Shown in pieces: positions 1,254 through 26,368 of a stretch of 26,368 bases of DNA. The notes under the pieces were generated by a model. That model worked only from the letters and a program-made list of their open reading frames with translations. It was not told the DNA's origin and searched no databases. A program made the position numbers and the translations under genes. This DNA is from a virus. Location of the stretch: IMG/VR virus record IMGVR_UViG_3300025099_000114, positions 1-26,368 of that record, one strand, 5' to 3'. Position 1 is the stretch's first letter, and every line of letters begins with the position of its first letter.

Positions 1254-3686
1254 CTATCTTGCTGTCGCTGGTGCTGCGCCATCACCGCCGAAGGGGTTTT
1301 CTGCAAATGCCATGTATATGTATGTTGAGCCGGAAGCATTGATGTTTGACTGCGTGCCACGAACCTTGAATCCGTTGCTTAAAAAATCGAACTTAATTGT
1401 AGAATAAGTTGTTTCCGCAGTGTTGTTGTCAGCATCTAAAACTGCATCCACCACATTGAACGGGTCACGCTTATTATCGAATATGTCCCAGTTACCTGTT
1501 CCGCCAACAGCACGTTTGACCAGTAACCAAGCGGGTCTGAATCCGGTATACACAAAAGGCCCATCCGTTGACCCATTGCCCGTGTAACTTCCGATAGAGC
1601 TATAGCCGGGAACTTCTGCAAAAACATACGCAACGTAAGTATTGCTGCTACCATTCGAGCCATTAGCAGTGCCGACTGAAAACACGCTGCTGGTAGGTGC
1701 AGTGCTATTCCAGACGGCTGCATCTGTTCCTGCTGCTGCGGTTTGATTTAGATAAATAACTTTAGCGGCATCCCCAATGCCTTTGTGGTATACGACCCAT
1801 GACCGGCTGTCACTTCGTTCTTTAACGATGATCATTTTAGGCACTGCACCCAAGCCATGTCCGACCGTGGCATTTGATCCTGTGCCTGTGTAGGTCGAGA
1901 GGGATATACCTGCCGTTTGATTAACAGATGTAGTGGTCGTGTTTATGCTGCCGTCTTCGTTGCTACTGCCAGCGCCGCCTTGTGTTTCCCACTGCCACGC
2001 GACATACGTTCTACCTGATCCGTTGAAGTTTGCATCCGTTGTATCTAGATCGAAGCCGTCAGTTTCAAACGTAATCTGCGCGGGGCTATCCGTATCCTCG
2101 GCGTCACTTGAGTTAGTTTTGAGTCTTTGTGTCTGGCCTCGGGCAACGTCAATGAAAACATGATTATCGCCGTTCGACCGGGGGGCAAGCCACCAAAGGT
2201 CCGGTTGAAAATCTCCTGCGTTCGCATCATTAGTAATAGCTAGGCCGCTGCTGCCGTTGCCCGTGTATAGCTGAGTGTGAAAATATGCTGACCCATCAGA
2301 GATTGTTGGTGTGGGTAAATTGGCTGTATTCCAAGCGTTAAAGCCAGTTGGAATCGTGTGTGCAAACGAGCTTGCGCCAAAGTTGAAAGTCTCACTGGTG
2401 CTAAGAAAGCAGCCGTACCACGGGGCAACGCTTTCTCCTATCGCAGCAGTCCACGTCCCAACCGGATTTGTGCCGTTTGCGGGATCGCCTGAGTTATACC
2501 AAGTTCCGTCAATGCCGACCCACATTTTCATGGTATCGACATCGATAGCCATCATAACAACATCGTTAAGTCCAAAAAGAGTAACAGAGGAGTCCGTTGT
2601 CCCATCGGCTATTTTGAACCCGGCACCGCCGGAACCTACGCCGCGATAATATGTGGTAGCAACGTCGCTTTCTTCTTCAACGTAATCATTGCCGGAAACA
2701 TTCAGCATCCAACCGGCCAGCGCATACGAGCCAGCAGTGGGTGTCCATTCGTAATACCACTTTCCGCTAGGAGCAAAAAGAGTACCTCTGCCGTGGTTCC
2801 AACTATTTGTGCTGGGATCTGTGACGACTAGATTGCCGTTACTCGTTGTTATCGCGGATGATTTATCTATTGGCGACATTACGCAGTAATTATTCGTCGG
2901 GCTGTCGGACATCTGATCCGCCGCTGCCAAGCCACTGCTGGTAAAGTCGTTGCCGTTGCCGCTACTGTCGTCACCAAGTGCAGAGCTATCTTGCCCTTTT
3001 AGGTAAAACCCATTAGTGCCATAAGCACCGCTGTACTTCGTGGGTATCCACACGCCTTCGTCGTTAGTTTCACCAAAACTAGCTGCGGTTAAAGCAGTGC
3101 CATCGATAAAGTTAATCTCGGCCATGTAACCGTCAAAATAATTCGTCGCATCGTCTCTCATCTTGCCAATGAGATTAGCACGGGCGGTATTCCAACGACT
3201 TTCATCGTTTAGACTTGGTTCAGTGATGGCAAACGCATCGGTCGTTGCTCGTTCACCGTTTATATAAAGCCTAAGTCTGTCTGCTGAAGTAGAGTTTGTC
3301 GTGTCCCAGACCAGCACAAAGTGCATCCAAGCGGAGGGATCACGAAACAATCTGCCGCCTGTTATTGAGCTAGAAAAACTTGTTATGCGACCACCTATCG
3401 TGCTGCTCTCACGAAAAAATATATCCAGCGTAGCTGCTTCACCGGCAGGGCCAAAGTAAAATAACATATCATTGGTGTTGTCCGCACCGGCGCTCATCAT
3501 TGTATAGCCACCGCTACCGACAGCGCCTCGCTTGAACCAGACGCTGTAAGTCCAAGTTTTTAGGTTCCCGTCAGACCCCGGAGTACGGGTCAAATAAGCA
3601 GCGTCGTCGTCGTTAAAACGGATCGACTGATCTATCTCGTACCCTGACCCAGCATTAGCCAGCCATTGTGAGGCAAACATCGTCAT
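1254..3686 (-). CDS. Large tail fibre: LamG-like, SPRY-like and three repeated C-terminal domains
   Basis: This 810-residue protein is likely a receptor-binding tail fibre or spike. Residues about 15-220 look like a concanavalin/LamG-type jelly roll (motifs W-x-Y-S-V-W-F-K-R, W-M-H-F-V-L-V-W-D, L-x-L-Y-I-N-G, G-Y-M-A-E-I-N-F-I-D-G). Residues about 290-440 look SPRY-like (G-K-W-Y-Y-E-W, V-V-M-M-A-I-D, M-K-M-W-V-G). Three related domains follow, at about 473-567, 598-692 and 700-801, each opening Y-T-G-x-G and closing with a T-Y-(V/I)-x-x-x-(F/W) strand. There is no signal peptide and no catalytic motif I recognise, so I read it as sugar or protein binding. The ATG at 3686 overlaps the upstream TAA (TAATG). 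It is the longest gene in the window. Confidence 0.75.
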   Translation of the reverse strand: MTMFASQWLANAGSGYEIDQSIRFNDDDAAYLTRTPGSDGNLKTWTYSVWFKRGAVGSGGYTMMSAGADNTNDMLFYFGPAGEAATLDIFFRESSTIGGRITSFSSSITGGRLFRDPSAWMHFVLVWDTTNSTSADRLRLYINGERATTDAFAITEPSLNDESRWNTARANLIGKMRDDATNYFDGYMAEINFIDGTALTAASFGETNDEGVWIPTKYSGAYGTNGFYLKGQDSSALGDDSSGNGNDFTSSGLAAADQMSDSPTNNYCVMSPIDKSSAITTSNGNLVVTDPSTNSWNHGRGTLFAPSGKWYYEWTPTAGSYALAGWMLNVSGNDYVEEESDVATTYYRGVGSGGAGFKIADGTTDSSVTLFGLNDVVMMAIDVDTMKMWVGIDGTWYNSGDPANGTNPVGTWTAAIGESVAPWYGCFLSTSETFNFGASSFAHTIPTGFNAWNTANLPTPTISDGSAYFHTQLYTGNGSSGLAITNDANAGDFQPDLWWLAPRSNGDNHVFIDVARGQTQRLKTNSSDAEDTDSPAQITFETDGFDLDTTDANFNGSGRTYVAWQWETQGGAGSSNEDGSINTTTTSVNQTAGISLSTYTGTGSNATVGHGLGAVPKMIIVKERSDSRSWVVYHKGIGDAAKVIYLNQTAAAGTDAAVWNSTAPTSSVFSVGTANGSNGSSNTYVAYVFAEVPGYSSIGSYTGNGSTDGPFVYTGFRPAWLLVKRAVGGTGNWDIFDNKRDPFNVVDAVLDADNNTAETTYSTIKFDFLSNGFKVRGTQSNINASGSTYIYMAFAENPFGGDGAAPATAR
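1284..2270 (-). repeat. Three divergent copies of a ~100-aa fibre domain
   Basis: Within the 810-residue fibre, three segments share order and spacing of motifs: Y-T-G-N-G-S / Y-T-G-T-G-S / Y-T-G-N-G-S at the start, a hydrophobic strand (D-L-W-W-L-A, K-M-I-I-V-K, A-W-L-L-V-K) about 22-26 residues later, and an end motif (G-R-T-Y-V-A-W, S-N-T-Y-V-A-Y, G-S-T-Y-I-Y-M). DNA identity between the copies is low, so the duplication is old. Confidence 0.6.
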
Positions 3687-5092
3687 TAGCTAAACGCCAA
3701 CTGCGGTGCGCCTAGCTGGATACTACCTGACGCCTTAACAAAGTATGGGACTACATCAACCGCACTTGCTGCGGTGCTAAGTGTAATGCCGCCCCCAGCG
3801 GGACTTTCGTAATCTGTTCCAAGGCTAATTGTACGGCTACCAGTGCCGTCTTGAATAAACACTATAACTCCGCACTGCCCGACTGATTCTGTACTTGGGT
3901 TGTTTAAAGTCACATTGTTCCCAAGAGTAAGAATAAAGTTCTGGTCGGCAGAAAAATCCAAGGTGATGCTCGTCCCGCTGATTGTATCGGTGTAGTTGTC
4001 TGCCAGAACAATGTCACCAACCGTCAAGGAACCTGCGACCGTCACATTCGTAGTGCCTGTCGGAATCTCAATGACATCCGCATCAGCATCGTTCTTGATT
4101 GTGACATCGTTGGTCGAGCCTTGGCCCGTTAGGATCAAGCCCTCCGCAGCGGTGTAGCCCATAGCCGCATTGTCACCGGCAGAGGTGTCGCCATCAGCGT
4201 TCACTGTAGCGGCTGTCACGTCGCCCACGATATCGACGTTGGTTGCTCCGGTCGCAATCGTGATTACATCAGCGTCAGCATCGTTCTTAATCGTGACATC
4301 GTTAGTCGAACCCTGCCCGGTAAGAATTAGACCTTCAGCAGCCGTGTACCCCATCGCAGCGTTATCGCCAGCGGAAGTGTCGCCATCAGCCTGTACGGTA
4401 GAGGCTGTTACATCTCCTACGATGTCAACGCTAGTACCACCTGTCGCAATCGTGATAACGTCCGCGTCCGCGTCATTCTTAATGGTAACGTCATTCGTGC
4501 TACCCTGGCCGGTTAGGATCAGACCTTCAGCAGCCGTATAACCCATTGCCGCTTTGTCGCTTGCGGCGGTATCCCCCAAAGCATTGAACGTACCGCTTGC
4601 AGTAACGTCCCCGGATGCGGTTAACGTAGCAATTTGCAAGTCCGATAGCGCATCTATAACCGCAGCACCGGAACCCGCGCCATCCATATACACAACCGCT
4701 GACTTTCCGTTGGCTACGGTTATATTTGCACCGGAACCCTGCGTCAGAATTACGGAATAGGGTCCGCTAGATCCAGAATCTGTGGTGGCGTTTATGATTA
4801 TGAAGAAGGCGGACGTTGTATTTGGAGCCACCGTAACCGTGTTGTTCGCTCCAAGGGCTCCCGTAAACTTTATAACACGGTACATGCCGTCCTGAAGATT
4901 CTCGGTGCCTGAACCAGGGGAGGCTTCCCGAACAGTCAGCGTATGAGTAGATCCAGAAAGCCCCACTGCTTTATAGGAAGCAATGCGGTCCAAAATATCT
5001 AGGTTGTGGTTCGTAGTATCGCCCCAAGCTCCAGACTGTTCTCCGGAGCCTATCTTTTCGATACCAAAGCTAGTTGTGTACGATGATGCCAT
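3686..5092 (-). CDS. Repeat-containing tail fibre / appendage protein
   Basis: This 468-residue structural protein starts MASSYTTSFGIEKIGSGEQS followed by G-A-W-G-D-T-T-N-H-N-L-D-I-L-D. That N-terminus is common in marine phage tail appendages and probably serves virion attachment. Residues about 50-165 form a beta-rich segment. Residues 173-364 consist of three 64-residue repeats containing M-G-Y-T-A-A-E-G-L-I-L-T-G-Q-G and T-I-K-N-D-A-D-A-D-V-I. Such Asp/Gly/Thr-rich repeats fit a trimeric beta-helical shaft. The C-terminal part (about 365-468) is beta-rich and non-repetitive and could be the tip. An AGGA sits about nine bases before the ATG. The stop overlaps the start of the next fibre gene, so the two are probably made together. 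No enzyme motif is seen. Confidence 0.75.
   Translation of the reverse strand: MASSYTTSFGIEKIGSGEQSGAWGDTTNHNLDILDRIASYKAVGLSGSTHTLTVREASPGSGTENLQDGMYRVIKFTGALGANNTVTVAPNTTSAFFIIINATTDSGSSGPYSVILTQGSGANITVANGKSAVVYMDGAGSGAAVIDALSDLQIATLTASGDVTASGTFNALGDTAASDKAAMGYTAAEGLILTGQGSTNDVTIKNDADADVITIATGGTSVDIVGDVTASTVQADGDTSAGDNAAMGYTAAEGLILTGQGSTNDVTIKNDADADVITIATGATNVDIVGDVTAATVNADGDTSAGDNAAMGYTAAEGLILTGQGSTNDVTIKNDADADVIEIPTGTTNVTVAGSLTVGDIVLADNYTDTISGTSITLDFSADQNFILTLGNNVTLNNPSTESVGQCGVIVFIQDGTGSRTISLGTDYESPAGGGITLSTAASAVDVVPYFVKASGSIQLGAPQLAFS
4001..4576 (-). repeat. Three tandem 192-bp coding repeats
   Basis: Three consecutive in-frame units of 192 bp (64 residues) begin at about 4576, 4384 and 4192 reading on the minus strand. 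The first two are nearly identical in protein. The third matches for its first 40 residues and then diverges after D-V-I. Synonymous base differences between copies are many, so this is not an assembly artefact of a recent duplication. Each unit opens G-D-T-(S/A)-A. Confidence 0.85.
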
Positions 5093-12781: not shown

Positions 12782-13216
12782 TTAAAAGTGCAGGATATCA
12801 TCCGGATCCTGTATAACGGCTATGACCTCATCGTCATTCAAAACGCGAACTTCGCCACCGTCTATCTTAAAACGAGCGCCCGCATATCTGCCAAAAATAA
12901 TCCAATCACCCTCTCGGCACCAAGCGCCACTGGGGAACTTGCCCTTGTCATCATAAGCAAGAGGACCGGTTTTAAGTACATAACCACATACCGTAGCTAC
13001 AGATTCCCGGTCCACAACAGAATCTGGGAGGAGAATGCCGCCTTCTGTGCGGCCTTTCCCGGCATAGGGGAGAATAAGAAGACGCCAGCCGGTAGGTTCC
13101 GGCAAACGTCCTAGAGTTTCTTCGGGAATTTTGGAGGGGTCAAGAACCCGTTCTTCAGGTTTTACGTAAGCTTCTTTGATCGACACGAGGTTGTCAGCTT
13201 GAGACTTTTCAGACAT
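12782..13216 (-). CDS. GroES-like co-chaperonin (Cpn10)
   Basis: This 144-residue protein contains a complete GroES-type fold signature. Residues about 42-52 read G-W-R-L-L-I-L-P-Y, followed by a mobile-loop-like segment with E-G-G-I-L-L-P-D-S-V, then A-T-V-C-G-Y-V-L-K-T-G-P, E-G-D-W-I-I-F-G-R-Y-A-G, and L-N-D-D-E-V-I-A-V-I. Bacterial GroES is about 97 residues; here there is an extra N-terminal stretch of about 40 residues. The product probably caps host GroEL to help fold phage proteins, as gp31 does in phage T4. Its place directly upstream of scaffold and capsid suggests the capsid protein is the client. The ATG is unambiguous and the stop lies just before the scaffold leader. Confidence 0.85.
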   Translation of the reverse strand: MSEKSQADNLVSIKEAYVKPEERVLDPSKIPEETLGRLPEPTGWRLLILPYAGKGRTEGGILLPDSVVDRESVATVCGYVLKTGPLAYDDKGKFPSGAWCREGDWIIFGRYAGARFKIDGGEVRVLNDDEVIAVIQDPDDILHF

Positions 13217-16138: not shown

Positions 16139-16672
16139 TTACTTCCTCAGTAGGGGGTTATCCAAAGCCCTTTGGAGTTTCTTGTCTTGACGCTTCTCAA
16201 AAGCGTCTAGTTTTGAGTCGATACCGTTTATTTTAGCGTCAAAACGCGCTGATGCCGAAGAAACAATGTCACGAATTGTCTTTTCGGCCTGCCTCAACGC
16301 CTCCCTCGTCTCTGCGTCCAACACTCTAGAGCGTTTATCTACGCCAGAAATGCCGGAATACAGTTTGGTGGCGTCATCGCGCACATCCTGACGTGTATCG
16401 CGCACAATTTCTTGTATTTCCTGCGTTCTGTCCCTTAAAGAAGACATTTCTCCGTCTAAAACCACCATCTTTTCATTCAAAACGGCTAGTTTTTTATCAA
16501 ATCCGCTTAAATCAGGCGCAGAATACGACGAAATCTTCTTTTTCATGTCCATGTAGTCTTTGTAGACCTCAAAAGCGCCGTACAAGCCACCAACTAGCGT
16601 AGATAACGCCAGAAATACGGCCACCATCTTGCCGCCTTTGAATTTCACCCCTGCAAATTCAACTTCAGCCAT
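16139..16672 (-). CDS. Membrane-anchored coiled-coil protein
   Basis: I place the start at the ATG at 16672 (177 residues), with GGAG eight bases upstream and the preceding gene's TGA two bases away; the TTG at 16690 is rejected. After a short charged leader, residues 16-34 form one membrane segment (M-V-A-V-F-L-A-L-S-T-L-V-G-G-L). A long coiled coil covers about residues 45-165, with D-R-T-Q-E-I-Q-E-I-V-R-D-T-R-Q-D-V near the middle. The end is basic (K-L-Q-R-A-L-D-N-P-L-L-R-K). The layout suits a protein that reaches from the inner membrane across the periplasm or into the cytoplasm. It could be a spanin-like or ejection-linked component; no direct relative is known to me. Confidence 0.6.
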   Translation of the reverse strand: MAEVEFAGVKFKGGKMVAVFLALSTLVGGLYGAFEVYKDYMDMKKKISSYSAPDLSGFDKKLAVLNEKMVVLDGEMSSLRDRTQEIQEIVRDTRQDVRDDATKLYSGISGVDKRSRVLDAETREALRQAEKTIRDIVSSASARFDAKINGIDSKLDAFEKRQDKKLQRALDNPLLRK

Positions 16673-22721: not shown

Positions 22722-24584
22722 TTAACCTATCACTCTTGCGTTTCCGTACAAGGGTTTATCCACCATACCTCCGAAGGCTTTGCTCTGCACGCCAAGGTCT
22801 TTTCTTAAAATAAGGTCGTCCTCGCGTCGATCCAGACCGCCCTCCTCAGTCCAAGGAAATCTTTCGGCTCTTTCCTTGTCGGTTAAATCTCTGCGAGTAT
22901 CGGCGAGGCGAGCTTCCGCTTCTCCCAATGTCCGCATATATATCTCAGTCGCAGTCAATTTCTTCCCTGTTACACGATCTTTTACATTTGTTTTAAGAAA
23001 CTCTCGGCGGTTTGCACCGCCCTCAAAACCGGGCGTTCTGTGCTGAATGCTGTGCTGCCCCTCGTGAATCATGTCACTCCGAAAATGAAGGGCTGGGTCA
23101 TAGTCTTTTTTATAGTAAATAATTCCAAATTCCTGCAACTGGTCCCATTGTTTCTTCAAGTAATCGGGCAGTGTCTCCGGATTTATCGTATCTTCCGGAC
23201 CCCCTTTTCCGCCCCATTTACGCAACCTGTATTCTGTTTTACTTCCCGACAAAAAAGAATCCAGAGAGATACCAGCTTCCTTAAAGTCTTCGACAGCTTT
23301 GTCCAGAGCTTGTTTGTACTGGTAGGAACTAAACTGTTGGACGTACTTACCTTGCTCATCCCAAGGTATCTTCTCGCCTGAAGAAAACGTTAGCTCGGAG
23401 CCACCGGGTCGCTTCTTAGTTCCTATAGTATCCAGGTAGGGGCTGTAGTAGGCACCACCCCAAATTTTGCTGCTCATAGTTTTAAGAGGTATGTCTGAAA
23501 CGGGTCTTTCCATACGAGCTTCCCTGCCTCTAGAACCAGTAAAAGGAGGCTCAGATTTTACTGATGGGGGTAGGCCCGGAGCATCACTAGTGGGAGCGTT
23601 TAAGATATAAGCCTTTAAAAGATCCGCGTCTTCTTGCTGTAGCTTTTGGTATTCAGCAGCGTACTCATCAGGGTCTTTATTGCTGGCTTTTAGTGCCAAC
23701 AGTTTTTCTCGGATTGCAGCCCGGTCTTTTTCGAGTGAAGCCAGGGAAGAAGCGTCTACCTTATTCGTCTTTCCGGGAAACGCCTTGTAGAACTCGGAGT
23801 GCTGCAAAAGATCACTGAGAACGGGGTTTTCTTTTTCTCGCAACCGGCCCGTAGGAGTTTGAACCCTTGGATTAAACACAGCCTTGGACATTTCATCGGA
23901 AATTTCAAAACGCCAATCGCTTATGGGCTCCCCGTTCCGTTCCCAACGGAACAAACCGGTTTCTTTCCAGATGTCCTCTCGCGAACGACCTTTTTCGGCC
24001 ATTTTCTCGGCGCGGGCGAACTTCTTGGGGTCGGCGGTCGCGGCGTTTCGCCCTGCAAACATTCCCAAAACAGCGCCGGGACCTCTTACAGGGGCTAAAG
24101 CACCCGCCGCACCCATCGTCGCAGGCGTCAAAAGAGGGTCATAACTTACCACGCGCTTCTGTTCGGGGTCGTAAAACTGTAGGTCGCCACCCAAACCCGC
24201 GTTTATACCAGCGCGTTTCTGGTCTTCGAGCAACGTACCGATACCCTTTACAAGGGCGTCCGCCGTCTCGCCGCGCTTTTCGCCGCTGGATATCAGTTCT
24301 CCAAGGAAATCATACGCGGACTTTGCGCCTTGGACCACGGGCATGTACTCAACGCCCCGCTCTACAGGGCCATACACCGCAGGCGTTACAACTCTTTTAT
24401 AGCGTTCTTGTGCTTGATCTGGGATTAGTTCGTAGTCAACTTTTTCAGGACTTATAACTTCCCGTCGAGAGGGCGTGACCATGTCCACAAGAGGCCCGCT
24501 CATAAAATTAAAGAACCCAAGTATGCCGGGAGCGGTCTGCTCCGGGGTCCTTCCATACTCATACTGGGTATTGGGTTCAGCCAT
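22722..24584 (-). CDS. Large protein with HExxH metallopeptidase motif
   Basis: This 620-residue protein ends with a zincin-like domain. His507-Glu508-x-x-His511 forms an HExxH zinc motif, preceded by D-P-A-L-H-F-R-S-D-M-I and followed by S-I-Q-H-R-T-P-G-F-E-G-G. Glu555 or Glu557 in L-G-E-A-E-A-R could be the third ligand, as in gluzincins. This set recalls the large polyvalent protein associated (LPD) domains of phages. Residues about 25-90 are Pro/Lys-rich. Residues about 145-190 include an Ala/Gly-rich, possibly membrane-active stretch (A-T-M-G-A-A-G-A-L-A-P-V). The start overlaps the end of the terminase gene by 8 bases. It may be injected with DNA or mature a head protein. Without the third ligand confirmed, activity is uncertain. 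Confidence 0.6.
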   Translation of the reverse strand: MAEPNTQYEYGRTPEQTAPGILGFFNFMSGPLVDMVTPSRREVISPEKVDYELIPDQAQERYKRVVTPAVYGPVERGVEYMPVVQGAKSAYDFLGELISSGEKRGETADALVKGIGTLLEDQKRAGINAGLGGDLQFYDPEQKRVVSYDPLLTPATMGAAGALAPVRGPGAVLGMFAGRNAATADPKKFARAEKMAEKGRSREDIWKETGLFRWERNGEPISDWRFEISDEMSKAVFNPRVQTPTGRLREKENPVLSDLLQHSEFYKAFPGKTNKVDASSLASLEKDRAAIREKLLALKASNKDPDEYAAEYQKLQQEDADLLKAYILNAPTSDAPGLPPSVKSEPPFTGSRGREARMERPVSDIPLKTMSSKIWGGAYYSPYLDTIGTKKRPGGSELTFSSGEKIPWDEQGKYVQQFSSYQYKQALDKAVEDFKEAGISLDSFLSGSKTEYRLRKWGGKGGPEDTINPETLPDYLKKQWDQLQEFGIIYYKKDYDPALHFRSDMIHEGQHSIQHRTPGFEGGANRREFLKTNVKDRVTGKKLTATEIYMRTLGEAEARLADTRRDLTDKERAERFPWTEEGGLDRREDDLILRKDLGVQSKAFGGMVDKPLYGNARVIG

Positions 24585-26040
24585 AATAACTCCGGATGTA
24601 GGTGGACTCCTCTGAATCTACCCAATCGTCGCTCGGAAGTTGCACAAAATTTCCCTGACGATACCGCATCAGAGCCTGCGTCGTGCTGTCTACAAGGTCA
24701 TCGTAGTCGCCATTCGGAAATGCCGCGCATTCATCGATGACTTCGTCCGCCCAACGTTCATCCGGTGCCCATATCATTCCGCTTTCAAAAAGTGGTGATA
24801 CAGAATGGACCCGCGTCAGCTTATCGTTTCCTTTGCTGGGTGTAAAGTTAACAACGGGTATGCCCAATTGGCGAAGTTCATGCGTCAGTGGGGTCCCTGA
24901 CGCCTTGGCTTCAATAATGACCGTCTCGGGTTCCCAGAAGTTGTACTGATCCAGAGCCTCCTTCTTTAGCTCTGGAAAATCCCAGCGCCCCTTCTTGGAA
25001 TCCAGCAGTATCAAATTAGCTGGTCCGTCCTGTTTTGGGTAAAATACCCCCCACGTCGTGATTGCAGAGTAATCCGCAGTCGTCGCCTTGCTAAATGCCG
25101 TGTCGTAGCTTTGTATTACATATTCAAGCTGGGGAACCTCTTCCTCTTCCCAACGCTTCCACCACTCCTTCTTGATGATAGCGCCTTCAGCCGACGTAGG
25201 ATTCTGCTGCCACTGGGCGTTCCACTTGGAAACGGACAACGAAGCGCGGACACCTTCAAGCTCTTCTGTTTTCCAATACTCCGGCCAACACGCATTGCCA
25301 CTGGGCATGATTGCAGGGAACTCTATAACTTCCCACTTGTCCGCATTCTCATCATAGCCCTGGGCCTTGATTACTTTCTCGGTAAGATCCTTCAACGACC
25401 ACCTTGTCATAACAATGACAATCGCACCTCCGGGCTGCAAACGCTGCCGGGGACCCGAGGTGTACCATTCATAGGCATGTTCCATCGCCGTTTCAGAAAG
25501 CGCGTCCTGCTCTGAGTGCGGATCGTCAATGATAAGAAGGTCAGCACCGCGACCGGTTATCGCACCACCGACACCAGCAGCAAAGTACTCCCCACCATGG
25601 TTCGTGGACCATCGACCCGCAGCCTTGCTGTCGGACTGTAGGTCTACAGCATCAAATATATTTTGGTACTCCGTCGTTGCAATGAGATTACGAACTTTAC
25701 GGCCAAAGTTTACAGCTAGCTCCGCAGTGTGGGTGGTTTGGATTATTTTTGTTTTCGGAGCACGGCCAATGATCCAAGACGGAAACAGGTAACTTGCGAA
25801 CTCGGACTTCGTATGTCTCGGAGGCATGTTGATAATGAGACGCTTGTTCTTGCCTTTTGCGATGTCCTCGAACTTCTTCGCAATCATCTTGTGATGTGCG
25901 CCTGCAATGAACTCGGGCCAGACCTTGCGGACGTACTTTAGGAAATCTTCACGACAACCCTGAACCTCCTCCATCTGAGCCAGACGAAGTTCAAGCTTCA
26001 TTCTACGATCTTCAACTTCCGGGGTCTCTGTGCGCTTCAT
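24577..26040 (-). CDS. terL: Terminase large subunit
   Basis: This 487-residue protein is the packaging motor ATPase and nuclease. The Walker A-like motif is at residues 71-80 (N-M-P-P-R-H-T-K-S-E), Walker B at about 168-173 (L-L-I-I-D-D) followed by P-H-S-E, and a coupling motif at 210-214 (V-M-T-R-W). The C-terminal nuclease shows an RNase H-like acidic set: Asp313 (S-Y-D-T-A-F), Glu377 (I-I-E-A-K) and Asp447, Asp448 and Asp451 (Y-D-D-L-V-D-S). The length is normal. Together with the small subunit it would cut and pump DNA through the portal. No small-subunit gene is visible upstream, where the sequence is non-coding. The start ATG at 26040 is the only one in reach of the frame. Confidence 0.9.
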   Translation of the reverse strand: MKRTETPEVEDRRMKLELRLAQMEEVQGCREDFLKYVRKVWPEFIAGAHHKMIAKKFEDIAKGKNKRLIINMPPRHTKSEFASYLFPSWIIGRAPKTKIIQTTHTAELAVNFGRKVRNLIATTEYQNIFDAVDLQSDSKAAGRWSTNHGGEYFAAGVGGAITGRGADLLIIDDPHSEQDALSETAMEHAYEWYTSGPRQRLQPGGAIVIVMTRWSLKDLTEKVIKAQGYDENADKWEVIEFPAIMPSGNACWPEYWKTEELEGVRASLSVSKWNAQWQQNPTSAEGAIIKKEWWKRWEEEEVPQLEYVIQSYDTAFSKATTADYSAITTWGVFYPKQDGPANLILLDSKKGRWDFPELKKEALDQYNFWEPETVIIEAKASGTPLTHELRQLGIPVVNFTPSKGNDKLTRVHSVSPLFESGMIWAPDERWADEVIDECAAFPNGDYDDLVDSTTQALMRYRQGNFVQLPSDDWVDSEESTYIRSYYG

Positions 26041-26061: not shown

Positions 26062-26077
26062 TGTTTCACGTGAAACA
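26062..26077. promoter_or_regulatory. parS-type ParB-binding palindrome
   Basis: The sequence TGTTTCACGTGAAACA is a perfect 16-bp palindrome and equals the well-known bacterial chromosomal parS consensus. It begins 22 bases upstream of the terminase start codon, within its leader. In bacteria such sites load ParB for chromosome segregation. No parA or parB gene is seen in the window, so binding would rely on the host or on genes elsewhere. A role in terminase regulation by ParB-like binding is also possible. Confidence 0.85.
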
Positions 26078-26095
26078 TTAAGGGATATGGGACTT

Positions 26096-26101
26096 GTTAT
26101 A
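26096..26101 (-). promoter_or_regulatory. Weak -10-like element before terminase
   Basis: On the minus strand TATAAC matches five of six bases of the sigma70 -10 box and lies 56 bases before the terminase ATG. No credible -35 box is 16-18 bases upstream. If used, it would place the parS-type palindrome within the transcribed leader. The element is a possibility only. Confidence 0.2.
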
Positions 26102-26142
26102 GCAAAATACATACCCGTTAAGCCATATCATTTTTCCTGTAG

Positions 26143-26158
26143 TTATTCACGCGAAACA
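26143..26158. promoter_or_regulatory. Degenerate second parS-like site
   Basis: TTATTCACGCGAAACA matches the parS consensus at 13 of 16 positions, keeping the right half (GAAACA) intact. It starts 81 bases from the start of the perfect copy. Similar spacing of a strong and a weak site is common in parS clusters. It may be a weak ParB site or chance similarity. Confidence 0.45.
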
Positions 26159-26241
26159 AGGCCGGAGCCGCCGCCACTCCCCCCCATGGGGCGAGAATCG
26201 CGATTTTTGGCGGATTTCTGCGGTTTCTGGCACCTAAACCG

Positions 26242-26254: not shown

Positions 26255-26270
26255 TTGCGCCATGGTGCGC

Positions 26271-26291
26271 GGACCACGGACCACGGACCAC
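26271..26291. repeat. Three tandem 7-bp repeats (GGACCAC)
   Basis: Three perfect consecutive copies of GGACCAC are followed by GGG. Iterated short sites of this type can bind a terminase small subunit or a replication initiator. A related 10-base string (GTGGTCCGTG, the reverse complement of part of the array) also occurs at 22348-22357 inside a coding gene. Confidence 0.7.
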
Positions 26292-26368
26292 GGGAGCCGA
26301 CGGCGGCGCACAACGGAATCGGGGCGATACGGGGCGCGGTCCATGCAGCGGGCGCATGGGGGCGAGCG

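Follow-up and report, generated by a model that had tools for sequence, protein, structure and literature searches.

Results

The locus and its gene neighborhood

The window, by which we mean the whole stretch of DNA analyzed here, is a linear virus record of 26,368 bp. Its late-gene module lies on the minus strand and encodes the terminase large subunit (TerL), an LPD23-domain protein, an SU10-type portal, a GroES-like protein, and the capsid and other structural proteins. The homologous TerL and the gene order TerL, large associated protein, portal, GroES, and capsid, compared by eye, place the window in the HTVC023P-type family of aquatic phages. Like the window, its close relatives are known from fragments, the longest examined measuring 29.9 kb. 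A G+C content of ∼50% suggests that the host is not SAR11; assignment of a host through TerL matches in bacterial bins was attempted and abandoned, the matches being scattered across many phyla, with one “Maricaulis” bin holding several phage contigs. The features of the window considered below are as follows.

12782–13216: gene for a GroES-like co-chaperonin, between structural genes, as in HTVC023P-type phages
22722–24584, minus strand: gene downstream of TerL, 620 aa, LPD23 domain; the sister-clade gene at the same position has a parS word in its coding sequence
24577–26040, minus strand: TerL, 487 aa; PHROG 38, E 4e-113; Pfam Terminase_6C
26062–26077, no strand assigned: parS, TGTTTCACGTGAAACA, a perfect 16-bp palindrome and by sequence a canonical chromosomal ParB site
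26083–26160, minus strand: second conserved block of the TerL leader; the minus strand reads GTTTCGC..GAATAA...GAAAAATGATATGGCTTAACGGG...TTGCTATAA, promoter-like by eye
26143–26158, minus strand: supposed degenerate parS copy, TGTTTCGCGTGAATAA, a 13/16 match to parS within the second leader block
26268–26300: short tandem repeats of a GGACCAC unit, upstream of the leader; many relatives carry other, lineage-specific short repeats there

The initial annotation had described the word at 26062–26077 as an exact bacterial parS consensus beside a phage terminase gene, in a window devoid of partition genes, and each of these points held. The word has 0 mismatches to the bacterial chromosomal consensus, given as the same 16 bp in a passage of PMC10197239 that cites Livny et al. 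2007; its end is separated from the TerL start codon by 21 nt; and neither ParB nor ParA was found among the window proteins scanned. Two matches to parS with three or fewer mismatches occur in the window, against 0.13 expected, and none of 100 shuffles gave two.

The second of the proposed sites fared differently. The 13/16 match at 26143–26158 exists, but it is not a parS: the palindrome is not conserved, relatives reading GTTTCGCAAAATAAT or GTTTCTCTCAAATAA at that spot. Because this segment belongs to a separate conserved block of the leader, the start-to-start offset of 81 bp to which attention had been drawn is without meaning. A σ70 promoter scan of the TerL leader recognized nothing.

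Conservation of the palindrome among close relatives

Relatives were drawn from the viral collection by TerL irrespective of the palindrome, and the close set comprises the 38 with at least 86% TerL identity in which the leader is present. The exact word stands in 33 of these, a version with one substitution in three (L133, L146, and L157), and a compensated C..G form, TGTTCCACGTGGAACG, in one (L155); one has lost it. The site is thus present in some form in 37/38 close relatives, contrary to the absence that the initial annotation had named as grounds for rejection. Most copies lie 30 to 63 nt from the TerL start codon; those of L150, L154, and L157 are at −286 to −198. When all perfect 16-bp palindromes were tallied, parS occurred in 34 of 42 close loci (window included) and the runner-up in 2. 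In an alignment of the leader the parS columns have a mean identity of 98.7%, against 56% for the other columns and 88% for the best other block of 16; no other stretch of this length in the leader is as well conserved. With tolerance at positions 5 and 12, the site was found in 33/41 close loci and in 22/39 loci at 68 to 72% TerL identity, whereas 400 half-site-shuffled control palindromes, searched with the same tolerance, had no occurrence in those TerL-selected loci.

One natural variant lacks the site.

L123, locus about 3294–3713: TerL leader without parS

The TerL of L123 is 96% identical to that of the window, of which it is the nearest relative after L122. Its parS segment has been replaced and the other leader block kept, so the site is either dispensable in at least one virus or located in a part of that genome that was not seen.

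Chance, joining of host DNA during assembly, or a by-product of coding could in principle place such a word in a phage contig. Exact palindromes do arise by chance: one control palindrome was found at 33 loci in the whole viral collection, where exact parS occurs at 120 loci or more, and a near-parS word in the SAR11 phage HTVC027P, described below, is probably a coding by-product. However, none of the 400 control palindromes recurs in the TerL-selected sets, whereas 37 of 38 contigs have parS at almost the same position, and genes of the window's phage family accompany 39 of the 120 exact-parS loci listed and none of the 33 control-palindrome loci. We give these explanations practically no chance, and on these comparisons they are refuted for the window's clade; a bacterial fragment joined in assembly, which the initial annotation had raised as a concern, is ruled out as the origin of the segment. 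The pattern of sequence retention indicates strong selection on the parS word in the window's phage lineage.

The same word inside coding DNA

At 68 to 72% TerL identity, the site of those 22 loci is either in the leader or inside the gene downstream of TerL. The most frequent perfect palindromes in these relatives are TGTTCCACGTGGAACA (10 loci) and TGTTTCACGTGAAACA (6 loci), the others being listed once each. Leader copies often read TGTTCCACGTGAAACA at −71, and in the TerL leaders of L097 and L263 TGTTTCACGTGAAACA and TGTTCCACGTGGAACA stand 24 bp apart. The coding copies of this sister clade lie 0.3 to 3.5 kb downstream of TerL, and all are read in one frame, as V[S/P]R[E/G]T; one of the two alternative frames would be interrupted by a stop codon in the TTT form. 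The SAR11 single cell AG-404-L13 likewise reads its word in the VSRET frame, within the rsmG gene next to parAB.

A codon-by-codon comparison within two homologous groups found synonymous change in none of 10 parS codon columns vs. 21 of 40 flanking columns with an invariant residue, for which the calculated chance is ∼0.002 if columns are exchangeable. In L194 the changes S to P and E to G occurred together and the palindrome was kept. The five-residue VSRET segment is present in the L055 and L084 proteins and missing from the L236 homolog. The lack of synonymous change and the paired substitution that preserves the palindrome show that selection acts on the DNA, rather than on a promoter or the peptide. 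In no locus examined of the window clade or sister clade do a leader copy and a downstream copy occur together. On a FastTree TerL tree the location of the site changes at least eight times over all site-bearing rows, a count that includes upstream rows possibly due to chance, so that weight is placed only on the contrast between leader and downstream positions in well-supported clades. AT-rich relatives with upstream sites (L014, L023, L088, L103, and L048) had been chosen for having the word and were left out of the evidence. The site shifts between noncoding and coding positions and stays near the terminase gene.

This relocation bears on the proposal that host ParB, bound in the TerL leader, represses or times late transcription of the terminase or late operon. 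In the window's clade the site does keep a nearly constant distance of 30 to 40 nt upstream of TerL, and the second conserved leader block adjoins it. However, leader control is impossible for the sister-clade word, which lies in coding sequence beyond TerL, and the outlying leader positions of L150, L154, and L157 fit poorly with it. Late-gene control, one of the uses of the site that had been put forward, is therefore disfavored as the general function and we consider it unlikely, although in the leader clade it may be an additional function.

Partition proteins and integrases in related records

Searches of related records gave no match to ParB_N (PF02195, 0/18), HTH_ParB (PF17762, 0/28), ParA-type AAA_31 (PF13614, 0/27), or tyrosine integrase (PF00589, 0/27), each of these models being positive in control genomes. 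Site-bearing records reach 61.5 kb (L055), 55.4 kb (L067), 49.0 kb (L093), and 42.1 kb. L055 and L067 were scanned for ParB_N and have none, and L093 was included in the ParA and integrase searches only. Terminal repeats are absent from three records of 55 to 62 kb, which are not proven to be complete. Thus, neither a ParB nor a ParA in cis, as in the parABS systems of phages and plasmids, was found in the related records, the genome of the window itself being incomplete. The parS word usually occurs once per genome stretch seen, close to the terminase, in genomes that gave no ParA or ParB match. The plasmid-like lysogenic state that had been suggested for this phage gained no positive support, with neither tyrosine integrase nor ParA, the only routes to persistence looked for, detected in the related records.

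A phage-encoded protein with ParB-like specificity, from a part of the genome not seen, might nevertheless be the true ligand, as part of the phage's own partition system or as a regulator. Neither the linear window nor its close relatives represent whole genomes, which leaves room for such a gene. Against it stand the negative searches in 18 to 28 related records, site-bearing ones of 42 to 62 kb among them, and the exact universal chromosomal word with its known tolerance at positions 5 and 12, which points to a chromosomal ParB. We regard a ligand of phage origin as improbable.

More broadly, ParB_N was matched in 4 of 50 parS-bearing virus records scanned. In a second set of phages, with TerL only 26 to 28% identical, the region upstream of the terminase holds two to five exact copies of parS, possibly an independent case.

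L017, 2657–3444: multicopy parS sites
L044, 10535–11462: multicopy parS sites
L053, 240–961: multicopy parS sites
L075, 1843 and 3092: multicopy parS sites

The bacterial word and its candidate ligand

The word also occurs near parB in bacteria: it is on the parB contig in genomes G015, G021, G026, and G023, with the C form in G024. In the SAR11 genome G015 it is located ∼1.5 kb from parB, inside rsmG, and the best match of the SAR11 ParB is Caulobacter ParB (6t1f, E 2e-59), ahead of nucleoid-occlusion proteins. From the shared word near bacterial parB and the similarity of the SAR11 ParB, we infer that host ParB may bind the phage site. Separately, a 2.2-kb stretch on a contig of a metagenome bin (G089, C826:5105–7258) holds ten parS-type words, eight of them exact and two with one mismatch; this cluster may be a host origin region or another mobile element.

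The phage site and the bacterial chromosomal parS share the identical 16-bp word, or, in phage relatives, its C..G form, or one of the position-5/12 variants, and both can be read as VSRET, as in the rsmG/gidB of AG-404-L13. They differ in setting: the bacterial site belongs to a chromosome and lies close to oriC and parAB, whereas the phage site sits beside a viral terminase gene, with no oriC and with neither parA nor parB found in cis.

Cultured and complete relatives

HTVC027P is a cultured, obligately lytic SAR11 phage (PMC12753301). It carries a near-perfect parS word, CGTTTCACGTGAAACA, at 16412–16427 of its record, also present in five relatives, and was tried and rejected as a cultured example of the site. 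The word lies inside a conserved ORF.

L204, 15701–16072 (HTVC027P): conserved unannotated ORF, 123 aa, between gp31 and gp32; nuclease-like by its ELK...SPHQ motif

The ORF reads SPHQ.AFHVKHP at this point, FHVKH being encoded by the word. In relatives the peptide is preserved but the palindrome is disrupted by synonymous codons, so the SAR11-infecting members give the site no support, and the HTVC027P word is, by this codon pattern, probably a coding accident. The HTVC023P-type SAR11 phages (HTVC027P and HTVC023P; PMC12753301, PMC9599517) belong to the same phage family by TerL, at 57 to 62% identity, but are without a DNA-conserved parS, and none was found in the SAR11-infecting members examined. 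The complete relatives HTVC023P, 023Pt_psg01, and DSL-LC04 have no site, nor do the cultured or complete relatives CRP-901, CRP-902, MW202675, MinM2, Pam1, Pkon1, and S0112; CRP-810 and ctsTn925 (MW202426) have one 1-mismatch word each.

Discussion

ParB is a CTP clamp that spreads along DNA and interacts with ParA and SMC (PMC8494293, PMC8367383). Within this framework, host chromosomal ParB would recognize the exact word in the phage genome, load as a CTP-dependent sliding clamp, and spread over neighboring phage DNA. An incoming or replicating phage genome would then resemble the host origin region to ParA and SMC condensin, and the likeliest benefit would be the placement, compaction, or partition of phage genomes in the infected cell. 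The proposal that a phage carries a chromosomal-type parS and could recruit host ParB is well supported by the conservation of the word, its compensatory changes, its relocation, and the absence of ParB and ParA matches in related records. Collectively, these observations suggest that the site is probably an orphan host-type centromere of the phage and, with similar confidence, that recruitment of host ParB is the function for which it has been selected. That this function is positioning or partition specifically is a more tentative proposal, to which we give somewhat less than even weight.

The same sequence pattern would, we reason, be predicted if the site were a decoy: many replicated genomes, each with one parS, would draw ParB off the host origin and so disrupt host segregation, for which one site per genome would suffice and no phage protein would be needed. 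A decoy would, however, favor many sites per genome, and most loci keep one; we think it very unlikely. We lean toward a model in which a broad phage lineage without detectable Par proteins exploits the host ParABS/SMC machinery for its own genome through an orphan host-type centromere, usually one per genome, mobile between noncoding and coding places yet near the terminase. The unrelated phages that have arrays of parS upstream of their own terminase may have arrived at this strategy as well.

Phages with their own partition systems are already known, but in the open-access literature searched we found no description of phages that conserve an orphan host-type parS and rely on host ParB. If the phages described here do so, chromosome segregation joins the host processes exploited by phages, and the question is raised of why infecting DNA would gain from ParB and SMC.

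The closest known systems differ in what the phage supplies. Phages P1 and N15 have their own parABS. So do the cluster A mycobacteriophages RedRock and CRB1, in which parABS serves extrachromosomal prophages and the RedRock centromere consists of eight copies of an 8-bp repeat (PMC7157519). In all of these, as proposed here, a centromere is used for the phage genome; however, they encode their own ParA and ParB and have their own type of centromere, whereas the lineage described here yielded no Par protein and carries the word of the host. A second parallel is the engineered λ-parS phage, which has been used with CFP-ParB as a reporter (PMC13190303). In the λ system ParB gathers on the parS of the infecting phage genome and is visible as foci. 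That arrangement is artificial, whereas the natural site in the present phages suggests that such recruitment may be something that phages themselves exploit.
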